Assembly: GCA_022448085.1 (NCBI GenBank)
Contig: JAKUTH010000006.1
Coordinates: 1-64,000, forward strand
Origin: Pseudomonadales bacterium
Lineage (GTDB): Bacteria > Pseudomonadota > Gammaproteobacteria > Pseudomonadales > Azotimanducaceae
Length of the DNA stretch: 64,000 bases
Reading direction: 5' to 3'
Shown piece after piece: positions 1,786-21,267 of this stretch (the stretch's first letter is position 1; every line of letters begins with the position of its first letter). A program made the translations under genes and the position numbers. Below the pieces are notes generated by a model, which made no database searches, was not told the DNA's origin, and saw only the letters and a program-made list of their open reading frames with translations.

Positions 1786-3443
1786 AGGTCGCTGCGCGAA
1801 GTTCAACTCGGATTGAGTTTGGGCGTTGGGTGCGATCGTGCCTCGTCATTGTGGTCGCGGCCGGGCTCGTTCCGTGTTTCGGCTTGGAAGAGAAGAGTGC
1901 TCTAGACGCTAGCTTTCAAGCCACCGTCGATCTCCTAAAGACTCGTTCTTTTGGGGAAAAGGCGGAAGCAGCAAGGGCGATTGCGGCACACACGCACCCG
2001 CGCACGCTAGAAGTGTTGACGGCGCTGTTAGATGCGGAACTCTACACAGAGCGTAAAACGGATCGTGTGGTCTTTGCGAATGGGCTCGATGGTGGCGGGT
2101 TCAACATTCGCGATGCCGTCACCGGTGAAGGGCTCGGTCAAGTGGGGCGCCGAGGGGCGAAAAAAATTAGTGTCAACAATCGTTTGCGAGGTCTTCTGCG
2201 AGGTCTGATCGCGGGTATTCGCCTCGACGATAAGGACCCCGATGATCGGATTGCGGCAGCCGAAGCGATTGCCGACGGAGCTGACTCTTCCATGCGAGAA
2301 GTTCTTGATGCGCGGTTGCTTGTCGAATCGGACGCCAAAGTGATTGCAGCGATCGAAACTGCGTTGGTTGTATTTGATTTGGACGCAAACGATGAAACCA
2401 TACGCTTAAGGGCGATCCGTGCGTCGGCAAGCAATCTAGATGGTCGCGTTCGCGAAAAGCTGACAGGTATTTCTAACGATCCGGTAGCAAGTGAGGCGAT
2501 TCAAGAGGCCGCACGCGAGACACTAGAAAGTATCGAAGAGACGGTGGCGCGGTACAAGACCATCGAAACGGTATTCTTTGGTCTAAGCCTTGGATCCGTG
2601 CTGGTGTTGGCGGCTATCGGTCTTTCCATCACCTTTGGGGTGATGGGCGTCATCAATATGGCTCACGGCGAGCTGATTATGCTCGGCGCTTACACCACGT
2701 ATGTTGTACAGACGTTGTTTCCTGGGGCGCTGGAATACTCGCTCCTCATTGCCGTCCCCGCGGCTTTTTTTGTATCCGGTCTGGTCGGCATTGGGATTGA
2801 ACGAGGAATCTTTAGATTCCTTTACGGGCGACCGTTGGAAACACTTCTCGCCTCGTTTGGCGTCAGTTTGGTGTTGCAACAGGCGGTCAAAACTATCTTC
2901 ACAGCCCTCAACCGGCCCGTTGCCACCCCACAGTGGATGAGCGGGTCTTTTGAACTTTTGGACGGCCTTTCACTCACCTTCAACCGCCTCTACATCTTGA
3001 TTTTCGCTGGACTCATTTTTGCGGCGTTGGTGCTTGTTCTACAGCGGACGCGACTTGGCCTTGAAGTGCGTGCTGTTACCCAGAACCGGGCCATGGCACG
3101 CGCGATGGGTATTCGAAGTGCTCGGGTGGACGCGCTGACATTTGGCCTTGGGGCGGGGATTGCGGGTGTCGCCGGCGTCGCTTTGTCTCAACTGACCAAT
3201 GTCGGGCCCTATCTGGGGCGGGGCTACATCGTTGATTCGTTCATGGTGGTTGTGTTTGGGGGTGTCGGGAATCTATGGGGGACACTCGTGGCTGGACTTT
3301 CGCTGGGTGTGGCCAATAAGTTTCTCGAACCCTATGCAGGCGCGGTCGTCGCAAAAGTTCTCGTGCTCGTTTTCATTATTCTATTCATTCAGTGGAGGCC
3401 ACGCGGTTTGTTTCCGCAGAAGGGACGCGCGGCAGAAAGCTGA
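1782..3443 (+). CDS. urtB: Urea ABC transporter permease UrtB
   Basis: 553 residues. A signal-like hydrophobic stretch lies at about 15-35, followed by an alpha-helical, HEAT-like extracytoplasmic region (about 40-250) typical of proteobacterial UrtB, then a LivH-type permease from about 265 with many transmembrane helices and the family stretch GVMGVINMAHGELIMLGAY. It forms the urea channel together with UrtC. It follows urtA after a hairpin, its ATG overlaps the stop of a tiny leader ORF, and its TGA overlaps the urtC ATG (TGATG, 3441-3445), so translation of the permease genes is likely coupled. Confidence 0.96.
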   Translation: MKVAARSSTRIEFGRWVRSCLVIVVAAGLVPCFGLEEKSALDASFQATVDLLKTRSFGEKAEAARAIAAHTHPRTLEVLTALLDAELYTERKTDRVVFANGLDGGGFNIRDAVTGEGLGQVGRRGAKKISVNNRLRGLLRGLIAGIRLDDKDPDDRIAAAEAIADGADSSMREVLDARLLVESDAKVIAAIETALVVFDLDANDETIRLRAIRASASNLDGRVREKLTGISNDPVASEAIQEAARETLESIEETVARYKTIETVFFGLSLGSVLVLAAIGLSITFGVMGVINMAHGELIMLGAYTTYVVQTLFPGALEYSLLIAVPAAFFVSGLVGIGIERGIFRFLYGRPLETLLASFGVSLVLQQAVKTIFTALNRPVATPQWMSGSFELLDGLSLTFNRLYILIFAGLIFAALVLVLQRTRLGLEVRAVTQNRAMARAMGIRSARVDALTFGLGAGIAGVAGVALSQLTNVGPYLGRGYIVDSFMVVVFGGVGNLWGTLVAGLSLGVANKFLEPYAGAVVAKVLVLVFIILFIQWRPRGLFPQKGRAAES

Positions 3444-4594
3444 TGCTATTAGGTCGTTTAATCAAACAAGATTGGGGACGGTCGATCCTGTTGGGGACTC
3501 TTGGTGTGATGTGTGTGGTCGTACCCGTCGCCAACCTTTTGGTTCCCGAAGACTCTGCGTTTCATGTCTCCACATACACGGTTACGTTGCTTGGTAAATA
3601 CCTGTGTTATGCGCTCCTAGCAATGGCCCTCGACCTTGTGTGGGGGTATTGCGGCATCCTCAGTCTTGGACACGGGGCTTTTTTTGCGCTGGGTGGATAC
3701 GCAATGGGCATGTATCTCATGCGCCAAATCGGTACGCGCGGTGTCTACGGGCATCCAGAACTGCCCGATTTCATGGTATTCCTCAATTGGGAGGAACTGC
3801 CTTGGTATTGGTTCGGCTTCGATGCGTTCTGGTTTGCCATGCTGATGGTTGTTCTAGTTCCCGGATTGCTTGCGCTGGTGTTCGGTTGGCTCGCGTTCCG
3901 TTCAAGGGTCACAGGCGTGTATCTCTCGATCATGACGCAAGCCCTAACGTACGCGCTGTTGCTGGCGTTCTATCGAAACGAGATGGGGTTTGGCGGCAAC
4001 AATGGCCTCACCGACTTCAAAGACATCCTGGGCGCGTCGCTGCAGTCGGACGTCACACGCGTTGTACTTTTTGTCGTTTCAGCTATTGCGCTGGCGTTGA
4101 CCTATTTATTCTGCCGCTTTGTCGTGACGTCGAAACTTGGGCGCGTCGTCACCGCCGTGCGCGATGCCGATGACCGAACCCGTTTCATCGGTTACCGGGT
4201 AGAGAACTATAAAGTCTGGATTTTTACCGTGTCCGCCGTATTGGCTGGCATTGCGGGTGCGCTATACGTCCCGCAAGTGGGAATTATTAATCCGAGCGAA
4301 TTTGAGCCACTGAAGTCGATCGAACTGGTGGTGTGGGTGGCCCTTGGGGGTCGTGGAACGTTGTACGGTGCCGCGCTCGGTGCCGTGATCGTGAATTATG
4401 CCAAAACGTGGATGACCGGCGCGTTCCCGGAAGTTTGGCCGTTCGCTCTCGGCGGTTTATTCATCCTCGTGACCCTGTCGTTACCAAAGGGCGTCGTCGG
4501 TTTGGTGCGCAGTCTGCCGTATTGGCTGGCATTGCGGGTGCGCTATATGTACCACAAGTGGGGATCATTAATCCGAGCGAAATTCAGCCACTGA
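3443..4594 (+). CDS. urtC: Urea ABC transporter permease UrtC with altered C-terminal tail
   Basis: The start was placed at ATG 3443 (MLLGRLIKQ), which overlaps the urtB stop; an in-frame upstream ATG at 3392 lies inside urtB and is unlikely. The 383-residue LivM-type permease has multiple hydrophobic helices and the stretch LVWGYCGILSLGHGAFFALGG. The family-like sequence runs to about LPKGVVGLVR (near 4508). The last roughly 27 residues are read out of frame from a second, diverged copy of an internal urtC segment (4512-4595 matching 4231-4314), so the tail is not ancestral. The core looks intact, so function is probably kept. It is followed by urtD with a clear Shine-Dalgarno (AAGGAG). Confidence 0.95.
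   Translation: MLLGRLIKQDWGRSILLGTLGVMCVVVPVANLLVPEDSAFHVSTYTVTLLGKYLCYALLAMALDLVWGYCGILSLGHGAFFALGGYAMGMYLMRQIGTRGVYGHPELPDFMVFLNWEELPWYWFGFDAFWFAMLMVVLVPGLLALVFGWLAFRSRVTGVYLSIMTQALTYALLLAFYRNEMGFGGNNGLTDFKDILGASLQSDVTRVVLFVVSAIALALTYLFCRFVVTSKLGRVVTAVRDADDRTRFIGYRVENYKVWIFTVSAVLAGIAGALYVPQVGIINPSEFEPLKSIELVVWVALGGRGTLYGAALGAVIVNYAKTWMTGAFPEVWPFALGGLFILVTLSLPKGVVGLVRSLPYWLALRVRYMYHKWGSLIRAKFSH
4231..4314 (+). repeat. urtC internal segment, copy 1 (in frame)
   Basis: This 84-base stretch encodes the AVLAGIAGALYVPQVG region of UrtC in its native frame. It matches copy 2, 281 bases downstream, at 76 of 84 positions by hand alignment. Six of the eight differences fall on synonymous third positions, so both sequences were coding in this frame while they diverged. 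Confidence 0.9.
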
Positions 4595-4595
4595 A
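4512..4595 (+). repeat. urtC internal segment, copy 2 (displaced, read out of frame)
   Basis: Second copy of the internal urtC segment. Its native frame still reads AVLAGIAGALYVPQVGIINP and would stop at 4617, but urtC reads through it in another frame and ends at 4594. Against copy 1 it has two amino-acid changes (Phe to Ile, Glu to Gln) plus silent changes. This fits a fragment of a diverged urtC relative joined to the 3' end better than a recent tandem duplication. Confidence 0.88.
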
Positions 4596-4618
4596 TATGT
4601 CGGGTAAGGAGACGTAAG

Positions 4619-5473
4619 GTGTTTAGGCGATCGGTCGATAAAGATAAGCCAGCGCGCGGTTTTCAACCGCTCGACGATCAGAGCTCTCGCTTCTTGGCTC
4701 GGAAACCGAGCCGTGATGAATTGGTCAACACGGATTCCGGATACATTCTTTATCTGGAGGACATTACCGTGAGTTTCGACGGGTTCAAGGCCCTAAACGA
4801 GCTCACGCTCTACATAGAAACGGGGGAGCTCCGTTGCATCATTGGGCCGAATGGTGCGGGCAAAACGACCATGATGGATGTCATCACGGGGAAAACGCGA
4901 CCCGATTTTGGCACCGCGTTCTACGGGCAGCGTCTCGACCTGTTACGACTTACAGAACCTGAGATTGCTTCGCTCGGGATCGGTCGAAAGTTTCAAAAAC
5001 CGACCGTTTTTGAGAACCATACAGTTCATGACAATCTTGAGTTAGCGATGGAGGCGGACAAACGGGTCTGGGCGACCCTCGCACGAAGATTGAGTGGCGA
5101 GGAACGCGATCGGATTGCCGAAGTGCTCGACATTATTGGTCTAAAAGAGGAAGTGTCGGCGTTGGCGGGATCGTTATCGCATGGTCAGAAACAGTGGCTC
5201 GAAATTGGCATGTTGTTAATGCAGAACCCGCTGGTATTGCTTGTGGACGAGCCCGTTGCAGGCATGACTAAGCAAGAATCGGAGTCCACGGCGGAACTGC
5301 TGACGACGCTTGCGGGCGACCATTCGGTCGTCGTGGTCGAACACGATATGGAGTTTGTACGCTCCATTGCACGAAGAGTTACCGTGCTGCACGAAGGGCG
5401 AGTGCTTGCTGAGGGTCCCTTTGAAGAGATACAGCATGACGCAAAAGTGATCGAGGTATACCTGGGTGAGTGA
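4619..5473 (+). CDS. urtD: Urea ABC transporter ATP-binding protein UrtD
   Basis: 284 residues from a GTG start at 4619 preceded by AAGGAG (4606-4611). An unusual N-terminal extension of about 45 residues precedes the ABC domain. Walker A is GPNGAGKTT, the signature is LSHGQKQWLEIGMLL and Walker B is LVLLVDEPVAG; this LivG-type pattern matches UrtD. It would power urea import through UrtBC as a pair with UrtE. Its TGA overlaps the urtE ATG (TGATG), so UrtD and UrtE are probably made in equal amounts. Confidence 0.96.
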   Translation: MFRRSVDKDKPARGFQPLDDQSSRFLARKPSRDELVNTDSGYILYLEDITVSFDGFKALNELTLYIETGELRCIIGPNGAGKTTMMDVITGKTRPDFGTAFYGQRLDLLRLTEPEIASLGIGRKFQKPTVFENHTVHDNLELAMEADKRVWATLARRLSGEERDRIAEVLDIIGLKEEVSALAGSLSHGQKQWLEIGMLLMQNPLVLLVDEPVAGMTKQESESTAELLTTLAGDHSVVVVEHDMEFVRSIARRVTVLHEGRVLAEGPFEEIQHDAKVIEVYLGE

Positions 5474-9393: not shown

Positions 9394-9852
9394 TTGGAGA
9401 CATACACAATTTGTGACCGAACAGATCGAACCGCAAGTTCGGATTCGGATGGGACCGTCATACTCTCGTTTCAGCGCCGACAGAAGACTCGGCAGCGGAC
9501 GCAAACTCGGTCAGGCCAGAATATAACGATCAACCTACCGAGAGGAACGTTGATGCGTGGAGGCGACAGTCTGGTTTCTGATGAGGGGAGTATTGTTCAC
9601 ATTATCGCGGCGTGTGAGCGGGTGTCGACGGTCGCCAGTGATGACACTGAAGTATTGGTCAAGGCCGCGTATCACCTAGGTAATCGCCACGTTTCGGTAC
9701 AGATTGGTTTGGGTTGGCTGCGCTATCTCCAGGATCATGTCCTGGACAGCATGTTGCAAGAGCTCGGATTAGAGCCTAAAGAGCACTGGGCGCCTTTTGA
9801 ACCAGAATCGGGGGCGTACAGCGCCCACTCACACTCCCATGCCTCCGCATAA
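9394..9852 (+). CDS. ureE: Urease accessory nickel metallochaperone UreE
   Basis: No ATG lies near the expected start. TTG 9394 is favoured because AAGGGAG (9377-9383) sits upstream; another TTG at 9373 would place that site inside the gene. From 9394 the protein is 152 residues, with the UreE peptide-binding-like N-terminal domain and the metal-binding core around LGNRHVSVQIG and LRYLQDHVL, including a conserved His. The C-terminus carries only a short His run ([10 protein letters not shown]), so nickel storage capacity is probably low. The 3' end overlaps ureF by 14 bases. Confidence 0.9.
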   Translation: METYTICDRTDRTASSDSDGTVILSFQRRQKTRQRTQTRSGQNITINLPRGTLMRGGDSLVSDEGSIVHIIAACERVSTVASDDTEVLVKAAYHLGNRHVSVQIGLGWLRYLQDHVLDSMLQELGLEPKEHWAPFEPESGAYSAHSHSHASA

Positions 9853-10495
9853 CCACGCAAAGCTCTGGCAGCTCATTAGCCCGATGCTTCCTATTGGGGC
9901 CTATCAATATTCCCAAGGTCTCGAGCATGCCGTGCAGTGCGGCTGGATTGGCGATCGGACCGATGCCATGAAATGGATATCCGAGCTACTTCACCACACC
10001 ATCGCCCATATCGATTTACCTATCATCCATCGAGCCCATCGGGCTTGGAGTTCTAAGGACACGGCCGACCTTCGATATTGGGATGATGTTTGTCGGTCCC
10101 ACCGCGAAACGCGGGAGCTGCGTGACGAGGAAGACGCAATGGGTATAGCACTCATGCGATTGGCCGCGGAGCTGGATCAACCAATCCCTAAGTGGCGGCC
10201 TGGGTATGTGGTCGCGTTTTCAGTGTTCGCTGTTAACGCTGGAATTACTGGTTTAGATGCATTGAGTGGATACGCCTGGGCATGGTGTGAGAATCAAGTG
10301 TTAGGCGCTACAAAATTGATTCCTCTTGGGCACACGGAGGGTCAACTGGTACTCCGGGATCTGATCGAACATATACCAATGGCCGTTGACGAAGCGCTCG
10401 AGTGTTCGGATGAAGACATTGGCAATAGCGCACCTGGACTGGCTCTTGCCAGCATGTGGCATGAAACACAGTACTCAAGGATCTTTCGATCGTGA
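9839..10495 (+). CDS. ureF: Urease accessory protein UreF
   Basis: 218 residues from ATG 9839 inside the 3' end of ureE; the open frame extends upstream but [15 protein letters not shown] matches the family start. The stretches [18 protein letters not shown] and [11 protein letters not shown] are typical. UreF is all-helical, binds UreD and recruits the UreG GTPase during nickel insertion. Ten bases separate its stop from ureG. Confidence 0.95.
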
Positions 10496-10505
10496 AGGCT
10501 TCAGG

Positions 10506-11123
10506 ATGAAACCAGCGTTGAGAGTTGGAATTGGCGGTCCTGTGGGCGCGGGTAAAACGACGCTAGTGGAAGCGTTGTGTAAACGGATGCGCGGAGACTA
10601 CGAAATAGCTGTGGTTACCAACGATATCTACACGCACGAAGATGCTGAGATGTTGGTCCGCTCTCAAGCACTGTCGGAAGACAGGATCGTTGGGGTGGAG
10701 ACTGGCGGTTGTCCTCACACGGCCATTCGAGAAGATGCTTCGATGAACATGGTCGCTATCGAAGATCTTACGACGAGATTTCCCGAGCTCGACGTTGTGA
10801 TTTTAGAAAGCGGTGGTGACAATCTGAGCGCGACGTTCAGCCCAGAGCTAGTTGATATTACGATTTATGTCATCGACGTTGCGGCGGGCGAAAAGATACC
10901 CAGAAAGGGTGGGCCGGCGATTACGCGTTCAGACTTACTCATCATTAATAAGACGGACTTAGCGCCACACGTAGGCGCATCGCTTGATGTGATGGAACGC
11001 GACGCGCGAAAAATGCGTGGCGAGGCACCTTTTGTTTTCACCAATCTTTTGACGGGTCAGGGCCTAGAGGAAGTCGTCGGTTTCGTCGTCGATGAAGGAG
11101 TGCTTACAGATAATGCAGTGTGA
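10506..11123 (+). CDS. ureG: Urease accessory GTPase UreG
   Basis: 205 residues from ATG 10506. The P-loop GGPVGAGKT (about residues 10-18), the stretch [12 protein letters not shown] and [15 protein letters not shown] are hallmarks of UreG, a SIMIBI GTPase that drives nickel delivery. The reading frame extends upstream into ureF, but the family start and the preceding AGG support 10506. It closes the urease operon. Confidence 0.97.
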
Positions 11124-11269
11124 ACCTTTGGGTGTCCCCCACATAAGCCGCCGCGACAATAACAACCTGGGCAACTCGAGGGGACCGTTGATGCCGATGG
11201 CTAATGTGTTCAAGATGTTTGGCAGAGAAATTTTGGCGAGGAGAGATTGTTTTGGGGTCTTGGCCCTGA

Positions 11270-11632
<363 letters not shown>

Positions 11633-11691
11633 ACAAGTCCCATTTGTAACTGGACGACGGGCGTTATCGGAGCAAGAATTGGAGGTCGGGG

Positions 11692-12999
11692 ATGAAATTT
11701 AGCTCGAGCGATTGGGTTCAGCAGGCTAAACGTATTTCGGTGGTTGCGTTGGTACTTGGCGTTAACTGGGCGAGCGCAGACGATCTGAATGCCGGTGATA
11801 CCGCATGGATTTTGACGTCAACGGCGTTAGTACTCTTCATGACCATTCCCGGGCTGTCGCTTTTTTATGCCGGTTTGGTGCGTTCGCGCAACGTCCTTAG
11901 TGTGTTGATGCAATGTTTCTCGATTACCTGTGTGGTGACGATCCTTTGGCTCTTGATTGGCTACAGCCTTGCGTTTGATGTTGGCAATTCTCTAATTGGA
12001 GGACTTTCGAAAGCCCTCTTCGCTGGCGTCGGCGAGGAAGCATTATGGGGAACGATTCCGGAGTCGAGCTTCGCGATCTTCCAACTGACCTTCGCGATTA
12101 TTACGCCGGCACTCATTGTGGGTGGTTTTGCAGAACGGATGCGCTTTGTTTCGGTCCTGCTGTTTACAGCGCTTTGGTCAATTATTGTGTATGCACCGAT
12201 CACGCATTGGGTTTGGGCCGAAAGCGGCTGGTTATTCGAACGGGGATTTCTCGACTTTGCCGGTGGCAGTGTCGTACACATTACGGCGGGTACAGCGGCT
12301 GTCGTGACGGCGTTGGTGCTGAAAGCGCGTCAAGGATTTCCCACCCAGCCGATGCCACCGCACAACATGACACTGACGATGGCGGGGGCGGGTATGCTCT
12401 GGGTTGGTTGGTTCGGTTTTAATGGCGGGAGCGCATTGACCGCCGGTGGTAATGCAGCCATGGCTATCGCTGCGACTCATATCTCAGCAGCAGCCGGTGC
12501 GTTCACGTGGATGTCCGTCGAATGGATTAAGTACGGAAAACCAAGCGCCCTCGGCGCAGTGACCGGTATGGTAGCCGGCCTCGGAACCATTACACCCGCG
12601 TCTGGCTTTGTTGGACCTGCTGGTGCGTTGGTGATCGGTGTTGCCGCTGGCCTGGTCTGTTTTTATGCAACCAACATCATGAAACAGAAGTTGAAAATCG
12701 ACGACACTCTCGACGTTTTTCCGGTGCACGCAGTTGGAGGATTTCTTGGAATCATGATGACGGCAGTTTTTGCTAGTAAAACGCTTGGTATTTTTGCCGG
12801 TCAAGAGACTATTTCCATAGGTAGTCAGTTGTTGACGCAGTTTATCGGGGCAGTTGCCGTCATGGTCTATACGGCCGTGGTTACCTGGGCGATTCTTCTT
12901 CTGGTCGGGCGGCTCGTTGGAACTAATCGGGTCACAGGTGACAACGAGGTTCTTGGGTTGGATCTTTCCGAACACAATGAACGTGGGTACGTTCTGTAG
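11692..12999 (+). CDS. amtB: Ammonium transporter AmtB
   Basis: 435 residues. An N-terminal signal peptide (to about ASA/DD) precedes eleven hydrophobic helices. The twin-histidine pore residues are visible in LDFAGGSVVHITAG and DVFPVHAVGG, and the family stretch AGAGMLWVGWFGFNGGS is present. It conducts ammonium across the inner membrane and is gated by GlnK. Here it would recapture ammonia lost during urea hydrolysis. The Shine-Dalgarno GGAGG is at 11680-11684. Confidence 0.97.
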   Translation: MKFSSSDWVQQAKRISVVALVLGVNWASADDLNAGDTAWILTSTALVLFMTIPGLSLFYAGLVRSRNVLSVLMQCFSITCVVTILWLLIGYSLAFDVGNSLIGGLSKALFAGVGEEALWGTIPESSFAIFQLTFAIITPALIVGGFAERMRFVSVLLFTALWSIIVYAPITHWVWAESGWLFERGFLDFAGGSVVHITAGTAAVVTALVLKARQGFPTQPMPPHNMTLTMAGAGMLWVGWFGFNGGSALTAGGNAAMAIAATHISAAAGAFTWMSVEWIKYGKPSALGAVTGMVAGLGTITPASGFVGPAGALVIGVAAGLVCFYATNIMKQKLKIDDTLDVFPVHAVGGFLGIMMTAVFASKTLGIFAGQETISIGSQLLTQFIGAVAVMVYTAVVTWAILLLVGRLVGTNRVTGDNEVLGLDLSEHNERGYVL

Positions 13000-13866: not shown

Positions 13867-14523
13867 ATGGCTGAGCCGCTGGGTCCTATTGTCGACGCTG
13901 GACGCGCGATTGAAGTTAACAGAGTACTTCGCAGCACATATTTGTTGCTGGCGATGGCGATCGGATTTGCCGCGCTTACGGCGTTTATTGGTATCGCGAT
14001 GGGTCTACCTTTCATGGGATTTTGGCCGTACTTGATCGGTTTTTTTGGGCTCTCCTGGGCCGTCAATAAAACCGCGAATACTAGCTGGGGCATTGTACTG
14101 ACGTTTGTTTTTACCGGTTTTATCGGTTTTGCCATTGCGCCTATTCTGAACGTGTACTTGCAAGTGAATCCGGGAGTTGTGTTGCAGTCCCTGGCGATGA
14201 CGGCGGCGGCATTCGTGGGGTTATCTATTTATACGATATTTACGCGGACAAATTTTAGCTGGCTCGGGCAGTTTCTCGCGGTCGCGTTTTTTATCGTCCT
14301 TGGCATTATCGTGGCGTCGATCTTCTTTGATCTGTCAGCATTTTCCTTACTTATTTCGGGACTAATGGTTTTTGTTGCGTGTGCCCTGATTCTCTTCCAG
14401 ACGAGCCGGATCGTATTGGGTGGCGAGACAAACTACATTATCGCCGCGAACAATCTGTTCGTTTCGATCTATATTTTGTTCATGAATTTGCTGTCCATTT
14501 TCGGAATCATGGGTGATGACTAA
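13867..14523 (+). CDS. Bax inhibitor-1/YccA family membrane protein
   Basis: 218 residues with about seven hydrophobic segments and the family-like stretches NRVLRSTYLLLA, GFIGFAIAPIL and SIYILFMNLLSIFG. A conserved acidic residue (FDLSAF) lies in a late helix. Bacterial members (YbhL, YccA) are inner-membrane proteins; YccA interacts with the FtsH protease and others act as calcium leak channels, so the exact role is not fixed by sequence. It is monocistronic, between the divergent tRNA gene and a strong terminator. Confidence 0.88.
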   Translation: MAEPLGPIVDAGRAIEVNRVLRSTYLLLAMAIGFAALTAFIGIAMGLPFMGFWPYLIGFFGLSWAVNKTANTSWGIVLTFVFTGFIGFAIAPILNVYLQVNPGVVLQSLAMTAAAFVGLSIYTIFTRTNFSWLGQFLAVAFFIVLGIIVASIFFDLSAFSLLISGLMVFVACALILFQTSRIVLGGETNYIIAANNLFVSIYILFMNLLSIFGIMGDD

Positions 14524-14546: not shown

Positions 14547-14572
14547 ACAACGGGAGCTGTGGCTCCCGTTGT
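14547..14572. terminator. Bidirectional terminator-like hairpin
   Basis: A perfect 11-bp stem (ACAACGGGAGC at 14547-14557 with GCTCCCGTTGT at 14562-14572) around a four-base loop lies between the converging ends of the Bax-inhibitor-like gene and the VWA protein gene. The arms are flanked by A/T-rich bases, but no long T-run follows on either strand. It probably ends transcription from both sides. Confidence 0.65.
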
Positions 14573-16587
14573 TATAAGTGTGTTAGACGCCGGTAGGCTT
14601 TCTGAAGCGCGGTAGGGAGTTCCTCTGTTTCTTCGATCACCATGTAGTGTTCCTCCGGGCACATGCGTCGTAAGTAGTCATGTCCGGACCGATCAACCGT
14701 GATGCAGAACGTTTTAATCCCGCGTTGTTCGGCCTCAAGAAGTGCCTTGGCGGTGTCCTGGACACCGTACTCGTGGTTCCCGCGATCGGGGCCATAGTCA
14801 CAATCTTGGGGGAATCCGTCGCTGATGATCATCAAGACTTTCAGAGCTGCACCGCTCGCTTCGAGTTTTGCCGCGGCGTGCCGTATAGCGGGCCCCATGC
14901 GTGTGGAGCGTTTTGGTTTCATGGCGGCAATAGCGTCAAGTGCTCGTGCGTCGAGCGCCCGTCTGAATTCTTTCGCTATATAGAATTCAACGCAGTCGTG
15001 GCCATAACCCGAAAAACCATACACTCCATACTGGTCACCGAGTCCCTCCATGGCACCGGCCATCAACACCACAGCTTCCCTCTGGATATCGATGATTCTG
15101 CGTTTTGCGTCTTCTGCCTTACGCCGACTCTCCAAATCGAAGTTGAATTCGTCATCATCGTCTGGGTAGGGATCGCGGAGATTAAGCCCGGCCCGCGCAT
15201 CCGAATTATCCATCGTTGGCGTGTCGGCAGGAGACTGATCGATCGGATCGTCGGTGGATGCTGATAAGTCGACCAAAAACGCCGCGCCCACATCGCGTTT
15301 CTGGCGTTCGCGCCGACTGTAGACCCGCTCATCAGGTGAACCGCCGACACGGAGATCGGCTCGAATATCAACGACAGCGCTCAAGTAGAGTTCGTCACCG
15401 TCGGTGACTTTGTTGACGCGTTGGTATCCGGACGGACGGATTTGTTCAAAATGCTTACGGACGCCTTGGACGAGAGGTCGGAGCGTATGCAGCAGCGCCA
15501 CTCCATCACCGGTTTGATCTTCCTGAAGTTGTTCTTCGTAGACGCGGCACCAGCCGCGAAGATATTGCGAGTTTAAGTAATCCCACTCGTCGTATAGGTA
15601 ACTACGGACATTGTCGTGTTCGTTGCCAAGCGCATGGCGAATGGCTGAACGTTCCATATCGATTCGACGCTGCGCCTGGTCGCGTTCTTTAACCATGTCA
15701 GCGTTGGTTTCTCGGATGGTCCCGTCGCCCTCCGTCTCGCCCATGACGACTTCCTTCTCGGCTGCGTTGTCGGCAAGCTCAAACGCTGCTAACTGTGCAT
15801 TCATCGACTCGAGGTCGTCTTGCCAATCTTCAAGTCGCACCTGTCGCTGCAGCCATTCCATCGGCGGACCTTCGGTCGTTTCGATCAACTCGTCGACATC
15901 ATCCGTGGCGATTTCGATGAGGTGAGCTAACGCCTGATAACAGTCGATGGTTGCCTGAACGCTGGTGTATACCGTTGCTTTAGGGTCTTGAATGGGGTTA
16001 ACGAAGATGGCGAGGTTTGTCTGGGCGTTCGGGACGCTATTCAAGAACCCCTGCAACTTTTTCAAGGCCCCTTTAACACCGACTTCGTGGGATTCGTTGT
16101 TGTAGTCGTTGTCGAATTTTTTCTGTAACCGTTTTCGGTACGGAATCGCGCCGGGGTAATGGCGCAGCACGGCGGTTTCGATGCGTGCGGTTTCGATAAT
16201 GCTGAATAGCTGGCGTGCAAGGACCGAATATTCGAAATGCCGAAACAGAAGCTCCAGGTCTGATTCTCGATGTTGCTCCGGAAGCTCGTGTTCCCGTAGA
16301 TCGTTGCATTCGCGTCGAGCTTGATGGATGTCGAAGCGGTAGGTGCCAAATTCGCGGAAACCAAGCTGCTGCAGTATCAGCCAACGATAGGTTGCGGCGT
16401 TACTTGCCGGGATTGAAAAATAGTCGATACTGCCGGGTAGATAGACGCTATACGCATCGTGGCTTGCCTCCGAAGCGTGCGTGTTCGCATTGCTGCGCTC
16501 AGATAGATCGCGGATATGAAAGTAGCGTCCGGCAATGCCTTCGGCAAAGAGCGACAGAGGACGCTCCACCTCAGCGAGTGTGGTCAC
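14572..16587 (-). CDS. VWA-domain protein of the CbbO/NorD type
   Basis: 671 residues from a GTG start that overlaps the upstream ATPase stop (GTGA). A long helical N-terminal region is followed by a von Willebrand A domain at about 430-670 with an intact MIDAS metal site: DLSAST, the later Thr in [12 protein letters not shown], and Asp in [12 protein letters not shown]. Paired CbbO and NorD proteins act with a hexameric AAA+ ring as an adaptor that docks on the client enzyme. Known clients are rubisco and nitric-oxide reductase, and neither is present here. Two VOC-fold enzymes at the head of the same operon are the likely client candidates (inference). Confidence 0.88.
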
Positions 16588-17402
16588 GGCCAGATGACGT
16601 CGACGATGTCTGCGACAGCTTGTTGCACAGCGGCATCGTCGGACACTGCCTGCACAACGGCGATTTCCGACGCGCGTCTTGGTTCGATGCCTCGCTTGAT
16701 GAGTTCCCCTGCGTAAATCAACAGTCGAGTGCTAACGCCTTCCTCGAAGCCATGTTCGCGAAGATTACGCACTTTGACGCCGATGGTGGCCAAACGTCCG
16801 GCAATTTCCGGATCGATGCCACTCTCATGCGCGATGATTTCTGCTTCTCGGTCTTCCGGCGGGTAGTCAAACGTCAGGCTGACGAATCGTTGACGCGTGC
16901 TTGGTTTGAGGTCTTTTAGGATGCTTTGATAACCAGGGTTGTAAGAAATGATTAAGAGAAAATCTGCGTGCGCGGAAACGATTTCTGAGGTCTTATCGAT
17001 GGGAAGTACACGTCGATGATCTGTTAATGAGTGAATCAAAACCGTCGTATCCTTTCGCGCTTCAACGATCTCGTCGAGGTAACAGAGCGCACCGGTTCGT
17101 ACTGCTAGTGTAAGAGGCCCGTCTTGCCAGATGGTTTCATCTCCCTTTAGAAGATAGCGACCCACCAGGTCCGTGGCGGTGAGGTCTTCGTGACAAGACA
17201 CCGTGACCAGCGGTTCGGTTAACGCGTGACGATCTGATTCGGTCTGGCAATAGAGTCGCCAAGTCATGTGTTCGACGAAACGGGTTTTACCGCACCCGGT
17301 GGGCCCTTTGAGCAATACCGGAAGACGACTCTGGTACGCAGCTTCGAACGCCTCGATCTCGTCGCCTAGTGGCAGATAATAAGGTTCCTCTTGCAACGAC
17401 AC
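16584..17402 (-). CDS. MoxR-family AAA+ ATPase of the CbbQ/NorQ type
   Basis: 272 residues from a GTG start. Walker A is GPTGCGKTR, Walker B is [11 protein letters not shown], and the arginine-finger region contains [11 protein letters not shown]. The C-terminus has the CbbQ/NorQ/NirQ lid ([16 protein letters not shown]). Such ATPases form rings that remodel or activate metalloenzymes together with a VWA partner, which is the next gene here. Only three bases separate it from the VOC gene upstream and four bases overlap the VWA gene, so all four genes are probably one translationally coupled operon. Confidence 0.92.
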
Positions 17403-17405
17403 GGA

Positions 17406-18272
17406 CTACTCAGGGACGAAAGCGTCGCGCCCACTCCTGTAATTGAAAAAAGATTGTGCCGGATTTCGATTCACCAGATTGCGCTTGAACATGGGGTGGT
17501 GAAGGCTCCGTACTTCGTGTTCGATTTCTGTGAGGAATTCCCCGCTGTTCGGGTCGACGATCCGTTGGAATCGGTACTGGTGCTGATCGGATTCTTCGGT
17601 AATCAACCCGTTCTCAGCCAAGTAGGTATGGGGTTTCGAGAAATTCGACACATAAATAGCGATGTGATGCCCATCGTATTCGGCGATTTCCTCGTCGGTC
17701 TCGTCAAAGACAAACTGCTGATCCGTACCCATCGAAACGACCGCGCGTGCACCTTCGTTGTCTTCGATTCGTTCGGCGGGTGTCTCCAGGACTTCGCGAT
17801 AAAAGCGAGCGATCCCGGCGGTGGTTCCGGGTGGAACGTCCATTACGGCCAAGGGAATGCCGAGGCTCATATCGCCGTGTTGGCCGGGTCCATAGACGTG
17901 AATTTGGTTTCCCCATGGACAGGTGACTGCAATGTGATCTTTTTTCTCCTCCCAAGTGAACTCCGAGCCTTGCATTGGCTTGTCGATGAATTTAAAGCGG
18001 CGTTTCAAATCCTCCAGATCCGGGACGACCACAACGATGTGTCCGCGAAATTTTTGGGCATTGTTTTTTGGTAGATGGAATTGCTGTCCGCCCGCGTTGA
18101 TCCACATATTAAAGGTGCCAAAATCGATATAGGGGTCACGCGTAAAGCCAAGGCCGGAAACGTAAAAAAGAGCCGCTAACTGTTGATCAGGAACGGTCAG
18201 ATTGACATGCTCCATGTTGAGGATATTGCCGACATTCTCTTCTGCGCGGTTGAATTCAGCGGCCTCGCTCAC
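17406..18272 (-). CDS. Two-domain VOC-fold protein (extradiol-dioxygenase-like)
   Basis: GTG 18272 was chosen: it overlaps the stop of the preceding VOC gene (GTGA) and has the Shine-Dalgarno AAGGGGG. The frame extends upstream but overlaps that gene. The 288-residue protein has two vicinal-oxygen-chelate modules, about residues 18-125 (MEHVNLTVPDQQLAALFY, later NQIHVYGP) and 135-260 (ARFYREVLETPAE, DGHHIAIYVSN). His and Glu at module ends fit metal ligands of glyoxalase/extradiol-dioxygenase relatives. The substrate is unknown. It is followed by an AAA+ activase gene. Confidence 0.8.
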   Translation of the reverse strand: MSEAAEFNRAEENVGNILNMEHVNLTVPDQQLAALFYVSGLGFTRDPYIDFGTFNMWINAGGQQFHLPKNNAQKFRGHIVVVVPDLEDLKRRFKFIDKPMQGSEFTWEEKKDHIAVTCPWGNQIHVYGPGQHGDMSLGIPLAVMDVPPGTTAGIARFYREVLETPAERIEDNEGARAVVSMGTDQQFVFDETDEEIAEYDGHHIAIYVSNFSKPHTYLAENGLITEESDQHQYRFQRIVDPNSGEFLTEIEHEVRSLHHPMFKRNLVNRNPAQSFFNYRSGRDAFVPE

Positions 18273-18817
18273 GTTTGACCCCCTTCCCGCCGTGCCAGAT
18301 GCGACGAGCGTTCCTCGTAATAATCGTTGATGGGTCCGAATTCGGACGCGCCCTTGAACGCCGTTTGAGTAGCGTTGACGATATCGTCGGTCGCCATGGT
18401 TGGATCCCAGGGACCCCCCTGTGGCTGGGCCACATGCCAGGGGGTATCGCAAAAAATTTCGATGCCGTTGTCTTCTGGATCATTGAAATATACCGACCAG
18501 GCATTACCGTGCGTGATCGGCATAATATTGGTGACGCGGTCGTCCTTAGTAAGCACCTGGTGCATCGTCTTCACAGTATCGAGATCGTCGACTCGAAAGG
18601 CGAAATGAGCGACGTTGTTGCTGCGACCGCTCTGTTCTCGTGTTGCGGAAAAGCCCAACTGATGATGGTCGGTCTCGACCTGGCTTAAAAAGACAAATTC
18701 GTTCCCGCCAACATCGCCTCGATCTGTAACCTCAAAACCAAGAACGTTAGTGTAGAAATCGACCATCGCTTCCATATCGGTGACGTGAACGAAAGCGTGT
18801 GACCATCTAAGTTGCAT
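18269..18817 (-). CDS. VOC-fold protein, catechol-2,3-dioxygenase-like
   Basis: 182 residues from ATG 18817 (MQLRWSHAFVHVTDME); the open frame extends far upstream but that part lies antisense to the hydrolase gene. The module shows the extradiol-dioxygenase pattern of possible metal ligands: His in SHAFVHV, His in NVAHFAFRVDD, and Glu in DNGIEIFCDTPW. It is shorter than classical two-domain catechol dioxygenases. It starts the four-gene VOC/VOC/AAA+/VWA operon and is divergent to a hydrolase, suggesting ring-cleavage or related metal-dependent chemistry. The substrate is not evident. Confidence 0.82.
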   Translation of the reverse strand: MQLRWSHAFVHVTDMEAMVDFYTNVLGFEVTDRGDVGGNEFVFLSQVETDHHQLGFSATREQSGRSNNVAHFAFRVDDLDTVKTMHQVLTKDDRVTNIMPITHGNAWSVYFNDPEDNGIEIFCDTPWHVAQPQGGPWDPTMATDDIVNATQTAFKGASEFGPINDYYEERSSHLARREGGQT

Positions 18818-18880: not shown

Positions 18881-19990
18881 ATGGAAGAAATCGATACCGA
18901 CAGACTTCTTGACGCGATCACGGCCGTGGTACCGCCGGTCCTTGCCGCGTTGGAAACGCTGGCGTATGTGAGCCGTCACTTGCACCCGCCCAATGTTGCG
19001 TCGCTCGCCGACGCAGCGAGCCAAGCGGTGGTGCCGGTTCGTGAAGGTATGGACGTGTTCAAAAGTGTGGCTCTGCCGGATCATCTGGCCCAGTTTGCGG
19101 TTCACCTCGAAAAAGTGGTCGACGAGGTCTGTCTTGCTTGCGACGGTCTGGCGCAGAGTGTGGAGGATCCGAATGGTCTCATGGGCGCATATCGGGCTTT
19201 GCGTCACCAGACCCGTGCCGTCGAAGCGTTGTACCCCATCGCGTTGATGCTTCCCCCCGTCGGTCGTTTTTTTATTGAAGAAGGTCTGCGAGAAAATAAG
19301 GCGTTAGCGGCAAAATTAGCAGATGTGGATCCGGCCCGAGACAACGTCGGCATCATTCATGCAGGAAACGAAAAAGGCACCCGCGGTGGGTTTTCGATGT
19401 ATGTCCCCGAGTACTACCAGGAGTCGGACGCATGTCCATTGATCGTGGCGTTGCATGGAGGATCCGGACACGGACGGGACTTCCTATGGACTTGGGTTCG
19501 GGAAGCGAGAAGTCGCGGCGCTATCCTGATCAGCCCGACCGCGATGGATGACACGTGGTCATTGATGGGTCCGGACATCGATAGCGCGAATATTGATCGC
19601 ATGGTGCAACACGTCGGTGAGCGTTGGAACATGGATCCATCGAAGCGATTACTGACGGGGATGAGCGATGGCGGCACGTTTACCTACGTCTCCGGGTTAC
19701 GGGATGAATCTCCGTTTACCCACCTCGCGCCGAGTTCGGCGAGTTTCCATCCCATGCTGCTTGAGGGCTATACGAGTGCCCGCATGAGCAACCTACCGAT
19801 ATATATCATACATGGCGTACTCGATTGGATGTTCCCAGTCGACGTCGCTCGTGCCGCTGACGCGGCCTTGCGTGCGGCCGGTGCCAGGGTGATTTATCGA
19901 GAAATCGACGACCTTTCCCATACCTACCCCCGAGACGAAAATCCTCGCATCATGGATTGGTTGCTAGCGGCCGACTCCCCCGAAAACTGA
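18881..19990 (+). CDS. Dienelactone-hydrolase/carboxylesterase-like protein with helical N-terminal domain
   Basis: ATG 18881 (MEEIDTDRLLD) was preferred; ATG 18812 is in frame but overlaps the start codon of the divergent VOC gene. From 18881 the protein is 369 residues. Residues 1-150 are mostly helical and unrecognised. The C-terminal half is an alpha/beta hydrolase with oxyanion region ALHGGSGHGRDF, nucleophile GMSDGG, acid around GVLDWMFPV and His in DLSHTYPRDEN. It shares a roughly 60-base divergent promoter region with the VOC operon, so both sides may serve one pathway, with ring cleavage followed by hydrolysis as a guess. Confidence 0.78.
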   Translation: MEEIDTDRLLDAITAVVPPVLAALETLAYVSRHLHPPNVASLADAASQAVVPVREGMDVFKSVALPDHLAQFAVHLEKVVDEVCLACDGLAQSVEDPNGLMGAYRALRHQTRAVEALYPIALMLPPVGRFFIEEGLRENKALAAKLADVDPARDNVGIIHAGNEKGTRGGFSMYVPEYYQESDACPLIVALHGGSGHGRDFLWTWVREARSRGAILISPTAMDDTWSLMGPDIDSANIDRMVQHVGERWNMDPSKRLLTGMSDGGTFTYVSGLRDESPFTHLAPSSASFHPMLLEGYTSARMSNLPIYIIHGVLDWMFPVDVARAADAALRAAGARVIYREIDDLSHTYPRDENPRIMDWLLAADSPEN

Positions 19991-20333: not shown

Positions 20334-20963
20334 TTAAGCGCCGGCACTGACTGAAAAATTCAGTGCGGCGGCGGTTTTATACGCTGGTCGTTCGTGCAGT
20401 GTAGCTCGGTATTCGTTTAAGTTGTCAGCGAGTTCAAAATCGTAAGCATGGGCCCAATCCAAGCAAGACGTTAACAAAATGTCGACACCGGAAAAGCTGT
20501 CGCCCACGGCGTATTCTCTGTCACCAAGTTTCATCTCGGCCCATCGAATTTGTTTATTGAACCCATCGCGCGCTGCTCGCAAGGCTTCTGGCGCTTTCCC
20601 GTACAAGTGTGCAAGGTCATTGTGCCGACGGATGATGTAAAGCGTGTGGGCGTCGAGCTCCATCAAAATGTAGGAGGTCCACTCGTCGTAGCGAGCCCGT
20701 TCTCGACTGCCGGACGTCGGTGTGAGCAGACCGTGCTTGTCCCCCAAATAAGTCACGATGGCTGCGCTTTCCGTTAGCACGAAATCGTCGTCGACCAATA
20801 CGGGTATCTTTTCTTTGGAGTTTAAGCCCTGAAACGTTTCCCCTTGCGTTTCGCCGGTTCGCGATCCGATTAATTTGGGTTCGTAGTCGAGGCCGAGTTC
20901 GTGCAGTGCCCAATGCACACGAATCGTCCTGGATGTCGCAGCGCCCCATACCGTGATCGTCAT
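20334..20963 (-). CDS. Glutathione S-transferase family protein
   Basis: 209 residues from ATG 20963 (MTITVWGAATSRTIRVHWAL). The N-terminal thioredoxin-fold domain shows the glutathione-site stretch KIPVLVDDDFVLTESAAIVTYL, and an all-helical C-terminal domain follows. The Ser in ATSRT occupies the position of the usual catalytic Ser or Cys. The substrate is unknown. The start lies one base beyond the stop of the ABM monooxygenase gene, indicating cotranscription. Confidence 0.9.
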   Translation of the reverse strand: MTITVWGAATSRTIRVHWALHELGLDYEPKLIGSRTGETQGETFQGLNSKEKIPVLVDDDFVLTESAAIVTYLGDKHGLLTPTSGSRERARYDEWTSYILMELDAHTLYIIRRHNDLAHLYGKAPEALRAARDGFNKQIRWAEMKLGDREYAVGDSFSGVDILLTSCLDWAHAYDFELADNLNEYRATLHERPAYKTAAALNFSVSAGA

Positions 20964-20964
20964 C

Positions 20965-21267
20965 TCAAGGCCTCGGCAACTCACGTTCAACTTCGTAGAA
21001 ATGAACCTCGGCATTCGCTGGTGGATGTTCTGCTAGGGCAGTCTGGAATTCGCCCATGTGTGATGAGGCAAAGTGAACGCGCAGCGCGTCCATGCTTTCC
21101 CACCTTTCGGTGATTCGAATGGTGCCGGGTTCGTTCACCTCGACCGAGAACGCGTAGTCGAAGCAACCGTTCTCTTCACGGCTCGCTTGTTCCATTGCAG
21201 CGAGTACGGGTTTGAGCGCGTCAATGTGGACGTCGGTTAGTTCCAGACGACCGTTCACGATGATCAT
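20965..21267 (-). CDS. Putative quinol monooxygenase, ABM domain
   Basis: 100 residues. The ABM (antibiotic biosynthesis monooxygenase) pattern is clear: MIIVNGRLELT, ASREENGCFDYAFSVE, RITERWESMDALRVHFAS and HMGEF. These small ferredoxin-fold dimers oxidise quinols or similar aromatics without cofactors, or serve as accessory proteins. It heads the ABM-GST-DUF4242 gene run and is divergent to the SOS-boxed radical SAM gene. Confidence 0.85.
   Translation of the reverse strand: MIIVNGRLELTDVHIDALKPVLAAMEQASREENGCFDYAFSVEVNEPGTIRITERWESMDALRVHFASSHMGEFQTALAEHPPANAEVHFYEVERELPRP

Follow-up and report, generated by a model that had tools for sequence, protein, structure and literature searches.

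The window analysed here, a stretch of 64,000 nucleotides from a Pseudomonadales bacterium of the family Azotimanducaceae (GCA_022448085.1, contig JAKUTH010000006.1), carries an operon in which two VOC proteins are encoded together with a MoxR-type AAA+ ATPase and a protein with a VWA domain. It comes from contig C94 (69,834 bases) in a draft genome of 2.66 Mb and 94.6% completeness; among named genomes, those closest to it are metagenome-assembled and gammaproteobacterial, e.g. UBA1119, in which the two-domain VOC protein (VOC2) shows 99% identity. The operon and the divergent gene beside it are as follows.

14572..16587, minus strand: VWA protein of the NorD/CbbO type, 671 amino acids, Pfam VWA over the cut-off
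16584..17402, minus strand: MoxR AAA+ ATPase of the CbbQ/NorQ type, 272 amino acids, with Walker A/B motifs and hairpin (Pfam CbbQ_C, AAA_5)
17406..18272, minus strand: VOC2, two-domain VOC protein, 288 amino acids, GTG start (Pfam Glyoxalase), the linked enzyme and putative client
18269..18817, minus strand: VOC1, single-domain VOC protein, 182 amino acids, Pfam Glyoxalase over the cut-off
18881..19990, plus strand: divergent, esterase-like alpha/beta hydrolase, in a frame open from 18812

Transcription on the minus strand runs from VOC1 through VOC2 and MoxR to VWA, with an overlap of 4 bases between VOC1 and VOC2, a gap of 3 bases between VOC2 and MoxR and a further overlap of 4 bases between MoxR and VWA. 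The likelier start of the hydrolase is the ATG at 18881, about 63 bases from the start of VOC1; a promoter scan, itself uninformative, returned no sigma-70-like site. This arrangement of four coupled minus-strand genes and a divergent hydrolase agrees, coordinates included, with an earlier description of the DNA made from its letters (the first-pass annotation).

The sequence, the motifs and the predicted fold identify the MoxR and VWA proteins as a probable ATP-driven remodelling machine of the NorQD/CbbQO type. MoxR scores 106.2 bits with AAA_5 (cut-off 22) and 100.1 bits with CbbQ_C (cut-off 20.6); in the PDB it is matched best by CbbQ (5c3c and 6l1q at the top) and NorQ (9qh4). The helix-2 hairpin GRxL[LI]xxxxT was found in the window protein as a stretch of 10 residues and is kept in 73 of the 75 MoxR loci of type A, the branch to which the window belongs. 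The VWA protein is laid out as an N-terminal helical domain (residues ~1-330), a finger region and a VWA domain with the metal ion-dependent adhesion site (MIDAS) residues D440-S442-S444, T562 and D590, all of which are invariant in 30 aligned VWA sequences. Two of its segments within residues 331-669 match NorD (PDB 9qh6/9qhd), and NorD VWA chains are the first fold matches of its predicted structure (model confidence, pLDDT, 72.7). The N-terminal domain has a distant likeness to NorD (hhalign 98.3%, 17% identity) and gave no good match to CbbO (19%, from just two CbbO sequences of order relatives). The first-pass annotation had assigned the same two types and an intact MIDAS, and the Pfam scores, motifs and alignment are in agreement with it. 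In the accessible parts of the published work, NorQD is described as putting iron into nitric-oxide reductase (NOR) with the MIDAS being required (PMC13036017, PMC9976466), the GRXLL/IXXXXT hairpin as touching the NorD finger (PMC13036017) and the N-terminal domain as differing between NorD and CbbO, along with the targets (PMC9976466); background on CbbQO is likewise available there (PMC5437159).

The known clients of such pairs gave no hits in the draft genome, where neither a RuBisCO_large match nor a NorB-like protein was found, an absence that is not absolute at this completeness. Both COX1 matches (543.6 and 454.7 bits, the second being closest to CtaD/CoxA and below that cut-off) score like cytochrome oxidase; for comparison, two NorB-type proteins adjoining MoxR genes of the order, named NorB from their context, score 261.7 and 177.5 bits. 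The lack of rubisco and NOR, which had been remarked upon for the window, extends in terms of hits to the whole draft genome. With NorQ/NorD, which serves FeB insertion into cNOR of Paracoccus denitrificans, the locus shares a tandem of an AAA+ CbbQ_C protein and a VWA partner, the hairpin and MIDAS motifs being kept and NorQ 9qh4 and NorD 9qh6/9qhd being among the sequence matches, whereas it differs in the missing norB-like hit, in having VOC enzymes as neighbours and in its distant VWA N-terminal domain. With the rubisco activase CbbQ/CbbO it shares the AAA+/VWA class and the top PDB matches of MoxR, but here there is no rubisco hit and the VWA N-terminal domain is unlike that of CbbO. The type-A pair is a family-specific branch, found without rubisco or NOR hits in the window genome, and may be regarded as a NorQD/CbbQO paralogue peculiar to this lineage, its putative client being new.

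The linkage of VOC2 with this pair is widely conserved among close relatives. Named genome contigs were scanned for VOC2, and 44 named loci were chosen by closeness to the window VOC2 (loci, genomes and contigs are cited below by our handles L, G and C). At 42 of them MoxR comes next after VOC2, in the same orientation and within ~320 bases, and hence the adjacency is not due to chance; of the remaining two, the contig of L040 ends 66 bases past VOC2 and the stretch examined at L042 does not contain the pair. The operon gene order is maintained while VWA identity ranges between the 90s and ~43%; at L044 and L047, VWA is placed ~3 kb past MoxR. In G078 the pair is found ~3.4 Mb from VOC2 on one contig. 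A family sample of 150 genomes, in which neighbour assignments rest on tblastn, listed 79 VOC2 places and 117 MoxR places; at 44 of the 79, a MoxR gene of the same orientation is no more than 1 kb away, two of these adjacent VOC2 copies being broken (a 40-residue relic in G047 and a split gene in G085).

Outside the family VOC2 was found neither in 368 other genomes of the class (at 1e-15) nor, by profile, in 187 genomes from other families of the order (at 1e-10). As a control, 84 MoxR loci from outside the family (24 of the order and the 60 best-scoring of the class and phylum) were taken with ~1.5 kb on each side, of which 78 had an upstream open reading frame to scan, such a frame not necessarily being a gene. 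These frames matched RuBisCO_small in 21 cases, COX1 in 10 and RuBisCO_large in 9, and because the three make up 40 of the 78, the upstream neighbour outside the family is often a known client. A Glyoxalase-type family was seen in none of the 78 frames, being absent among the 23 families found there, and tblastn gave no match to VOC1 or VOC2 at the 84 loci. The VOC neighbour is special to one family, as far as sampled. A recurring linkage of VOC genes with CbbQ/CbbO homologues, the survey suggested by the first-pass annotation, is therefore borne out within the family (42/44 and 44/79) but not outside it (0/78). No title or abstract opening found in the literature describes such a VOC-MoxR/VWA operon, most subscription papers having been out of reach.

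VOC2 scores 25.3 bits with the Glyoxalase family against a cut-off of 20.6, and in the PDB no relative better than E 0.098 was found by sequence. Its predicted structure (pLDDT 78.5, with residues 43-67 and 265-288 below 50) resembles over the whole length maize glyoxalase I (Z 15.2), GLOD4 (15.1), B. cereus 1zsw (13.9), PcpA (4huz, 13.7) and B. subtilis 3oaj (13.1). These matches cover 219-233 residues with Z well above most other rows, the comparison being limited to the families in the VIA-align list; Foldseek agrees, and identity to these two-domain VOC proteins, which depend on a metal, is 8-15%. Residues H22, H66, H202, H203, E251, E253 and H259 are invariant in 76 VOC2 sequences, one of which is gapped at H22. 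The iron of PcpA is held by a module-1 His plus a module-4 His and Glu. By this likeness, H22, H202 or H203, and E251 of VOC2 may be the counterparts of the PcpA ligands, and H66, which sits in the low-confidence stretch 43-67, is a possible fourth, glyoxalase-like ligand. A VOC-fold enzyme likewise stands beside an alpha/beta hydrolase in MhqE/MhqD and mhqPOD, where a quinone/aromatic ring-cleavage dioxygenase is combined with a carboxylesterase; in contrast to the present locus, the accessible text of these reports mentions no MoxR/VWA pair (PMC6798810, PMC12673573). That VOC2 acts in the manner of PcpA/MhqO and is partnered by an esterase-like enzyme would be a guess from this analogy to MhqE/MhqD, as it is described in that same accessible text.

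The family MoxR tree comprises type A, with VWA proteins of ~670 amino acids (SH-aLRT 88), and type B, with VWA proteins of ~1000 amino acids (SH-aLRT 94 without L083). Type B is often found beside alpha/beta hydrolase, enoyl-CoA hydratase and PdxA genes. L088 (4047-9436) is one such locus, with alpha/beta hydrolase, enoyl-CoA hydratase, MoxR and the ~1000-residue VWA protein, L084, L085, L087 and L090 being similar; FxsA and PdxA are often near. By assignment, type A is present in 74 of the 150 genomes, type B in 37, a NorQ-like gene in one and both types in none. In the VOC2 tree of 76 rows the linked genes are placed in one branch of 51 rows (clade II; SH-aLRT 96), 42 of which adjoin MoxR. 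The other nine comprise a contig break (G094), a pair located elsewhere (G078, G031), second copies (G006, G062, G096), copies in type-B genomes (G046, G125) and one genome without a MoxR hit (G005). The last of these (L091, G005:C1) has VOC2 and the hydrolase in a 98% complete genome, and its VOC2 has the longest end branch with the ligands kept. Clade-II VOC2 occurs in 50 genomes, 47 of them with a type-A pair (Fisher odds ratio 42, p 5e-16, uncorrected for kinship).

VOC2 is plausibly one client of the type-A pair and not the sole one, because its co-occurrence with the pair is asymmetric: VOC2 is rarely found without the pair and the pair is often found without VOC2. That VOC2 is one true client is a serious possibility, to which we give somewhat less than an even chance. 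In the mechanism proposed, the MIDAS of the VWA protein would grip VOC2 while the finger of the VWA protein is seated in the MoxR pore, and ATP hydrolysis would distort VOC2 in such a way that metal can be put into the metal site (H22/H66 of module 1, H202 or H203 and E251 of module 4), or that metal or a stuck ligand can be taken out of it. The machine would have at least one further client encoded elsewhere, since the pair persists intact in genomes without VOC2. The asymmetry fits a client recruited to a machine with other duties, and it also fits genes inherited side by side. On a broader scale, we consider it possible, though somewhat doubtful, that a dedicated AAA+/VWA pair loads or reactivates a soluble VOC-fold metalloenzyme with a candidate site of three His and one Glu, which would constitute a further client class of NorQD/CbbQO evolved within one gammaproteobacterial family.

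A number of observations weigh against VOC2 as the client. In the alternative view the pair serves an unlinked, widely held client of the family, and VOC2 and the hydrolase owe their place beside it solely to vertical descent or common regulation. The co-occurrence counts ignore kinship, and 27 of the 74 type-A genomes are without clade-II VOC2. With 44 rows having VOC2 and 25 lacking it, the type-A MoxR tree calls for at least 10 switches between presence and absence, although many of its forks are weak and it does not represent the species phylogeny. None of the three MoxR motifs is damaged at any of the 32 loci labelled as lacking an adjacent VOC2, a set that includes the NorQ-like L172 and, from genomes with VOC2 elsewhere, L135, L112 and L167, and DxSxS is present in 28 of 30 VWA proteins at such loci. 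The odd rows there are short (L081, L107, L143) or full-length (L135), and odd rows also occur among the 43 loci with VOC2 (MoxR of L116 and L138; VWA of L103, L114, L142, L152 and L164). G047 retains MoxR and VWA beside its VOC2 relic. Clade-I VOC2, found in 25 genomes with the G019/G049 branch included, is never accompanied by type A, coexists with type B in 15 and has neither in 10, and yet keeps the same ligands and C-terminal tail as clade II. The clades are sharply divided by only two columns (A34, T53), the threshold being conservation in 92% or more of 45 clade-II rows, from which five second copies and L091 had been omitted, and in 15% or less of 23 clade-I rows; hence no chaperone-specific VOC2 surface is visible. 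That types A and B never occur together is what one would expect if a single pair were passed on vertically and had a common, unlinked client. A and B may indeed be one such pair whose surroundings vary, and this would speak for a common client encoded elsewhere. The presence of one or the other type in 111 of the 150 genomes, the survival of the pair after loss of VOC2 and of the hydrolase, and the unrelated enzymes adjoining type B (hydrolase, enoyl-CoA hydratase, PdxA) speak for this alternative, whereas clade-II VOC2 is seldom without the type-A pair, the gene order is kept over a wide range of VWA identity and the analysis identified no alternative client. An unlinked client is accordingly as serious a possibility as VOC2 itself, again with somewhat less than an even chance.

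The other explanations concern the remaining genes or deny a function altogether. VOC1 resembles catechol 2,3-dioxygenase and the C-terminal half of PDB 1mpy, and its extradiol-like residues H7, H71 and E120 are kept in 12 of 12 sequences; the dioxygenase-like character given to it by the first-pass annotation is upheld to this extent, but the score of 44.4 bits is far below the NCBIfam cut-off of 320.2. VOC1 is the first gene of the operon in the window and could on these grounds be an Fe(II) extradiol dioxygenase requiring reactivation by the pair, but the gene is present at just 15 of the 44 named loci. VOC1 was rejected as a core partner of the pair as a general rule, and its being the client is very unlikely. 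The emphasis formerly laid on an extradiol-type VOC1 is not supported, and the claim of an activase for extradiol enzymes is unproven; the proposal that the client is a VOC enzyme is narrowed to VOC2 by the adjacency at the named loci and weakened by the type-A genomes without it, by the sister VOC2 without a type-A pair and by the motifs that stay intact without an adjacent VOC2. Alpha/beta-fold esterases of the hydrolase's type rely on a Ser-Asp-His triad and require no metal, and this property, together with divergent transcription and absence from the vicinity in 17 of 69 type-A rows, makes it very improbable that the hydrolase is the client or a direct partner of the pair, even though it is adjacent and divergent at 37 of the 44 named loci and near the pair in 52 of the 69 type-A rows, many of them without VOC2. 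The dienelactone-hydrolase-like core ascribed to it is visible as a weak likeness that misses the Pfam DLH cut-off (19.2 against 21 bits); PHB-depolymerase and feruloyl-esterase types match better, also below their NCBIfam cut-offs. Finally, the missing rubisco and NorB-like hits could point to a decaying, functionless copy of cbbQO or norQD, an idea that is hardly credible, being disfavoured by conservation: the frames are open, the MIDAS is invariant, the ATPase motifs are intact in most relatives and the gene order is maintained across the family. A broken helper of rubisco or NOR was rejected on the basis of the single-copy CbbQ_C gene of the draft genome, the lack of a rubisco hit, the cytochrome-oxidase-like COX1 hits and the invariant MIDAS. 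The situation which the first-pass annotation had named as its refutation, a broken copy with a cbbQO pair elsewhere, is not what is found, as the CbbQ_C gene is the sole one and its pair is intact.

Two further proposals on VOC2 were tried. The conserved C-terminal tail (residues 265-288, low pLDDT) was rejected as a chaperone-specific handle, being shared by clade-I VOC2 without a type-A pair. VOC2 and the hydrolase as a fixed pathway is weakened, since clade-I VOC2 is mostly beside a methyltransferase-like gene. Action of the hydrolase on the cleaved product, as put forward in the first-pass annotation, would be conjecture. Among 24 neighbours of clade-I and second-copy VOC2, hand-picked out of 108, 16 form one cluster, and the five of these that were scanned all score as methyltransferases. 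At clade-I loci this gene is mostly downstream, possibly marking a second VOC2 pathway.

Several loci deserve to be recorded in their own right. At L118 (G047:C68:70116-70235) the relic of the VOC2 C-terminus lies just ahead of MoxR, far from either end of a 200-kb contig, as if VOC2 had been lost and the pair retained. L076, with the same neighbour clusters as L124, has a type-A pair without VOC2 and hydrolase between BacA and AI-2E transporter genes. At L229 (2776-6448), a clade-I VOC2 locus, the upstream gene (2776-4908) scores as a xanthine-dehydrogenase-like molybdopterin-binding protein, and L223 (G681:C22:223000-242900) holds two different CbbQ_C MoxR/VWA pairs within ~10 kb. In the window itself, open frames at 9797-12999, ahead of the operon, resemble UreF, UreG, a PII protein and an ammonium transporter, as named from translation alone, and the operon is flanked by the following genes.

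13867..14523, plus strand: Bax1-I (YccA-like) membrane protein gene, convergent, downstream of VWA and often conserved
20334..21014, minus strand: GST-like gene, a recurring neighbour
20965..21267, minus strand: ABM-family (antibiotic biosynthesis monooxygenase) gene, a recurring neighbour

MoxR/VWA pairs are common and few of their clients are known, those named in the accessible parts of the literature being nitric-oxide reductase, rubisco, fumarate reductase and lysine decarboxylase. Where the genome gives no hits for rubisco or NOR, as here, a pair with a small, soluble VOC enzyme at its side would offer a simple test of general metal loading by such machines. Moreover, the family provides natural controls, with clade II representing the enzyme with the pair, clade I the sister enzyme without the type-A pair, and further genomes the pair without the enzyme.

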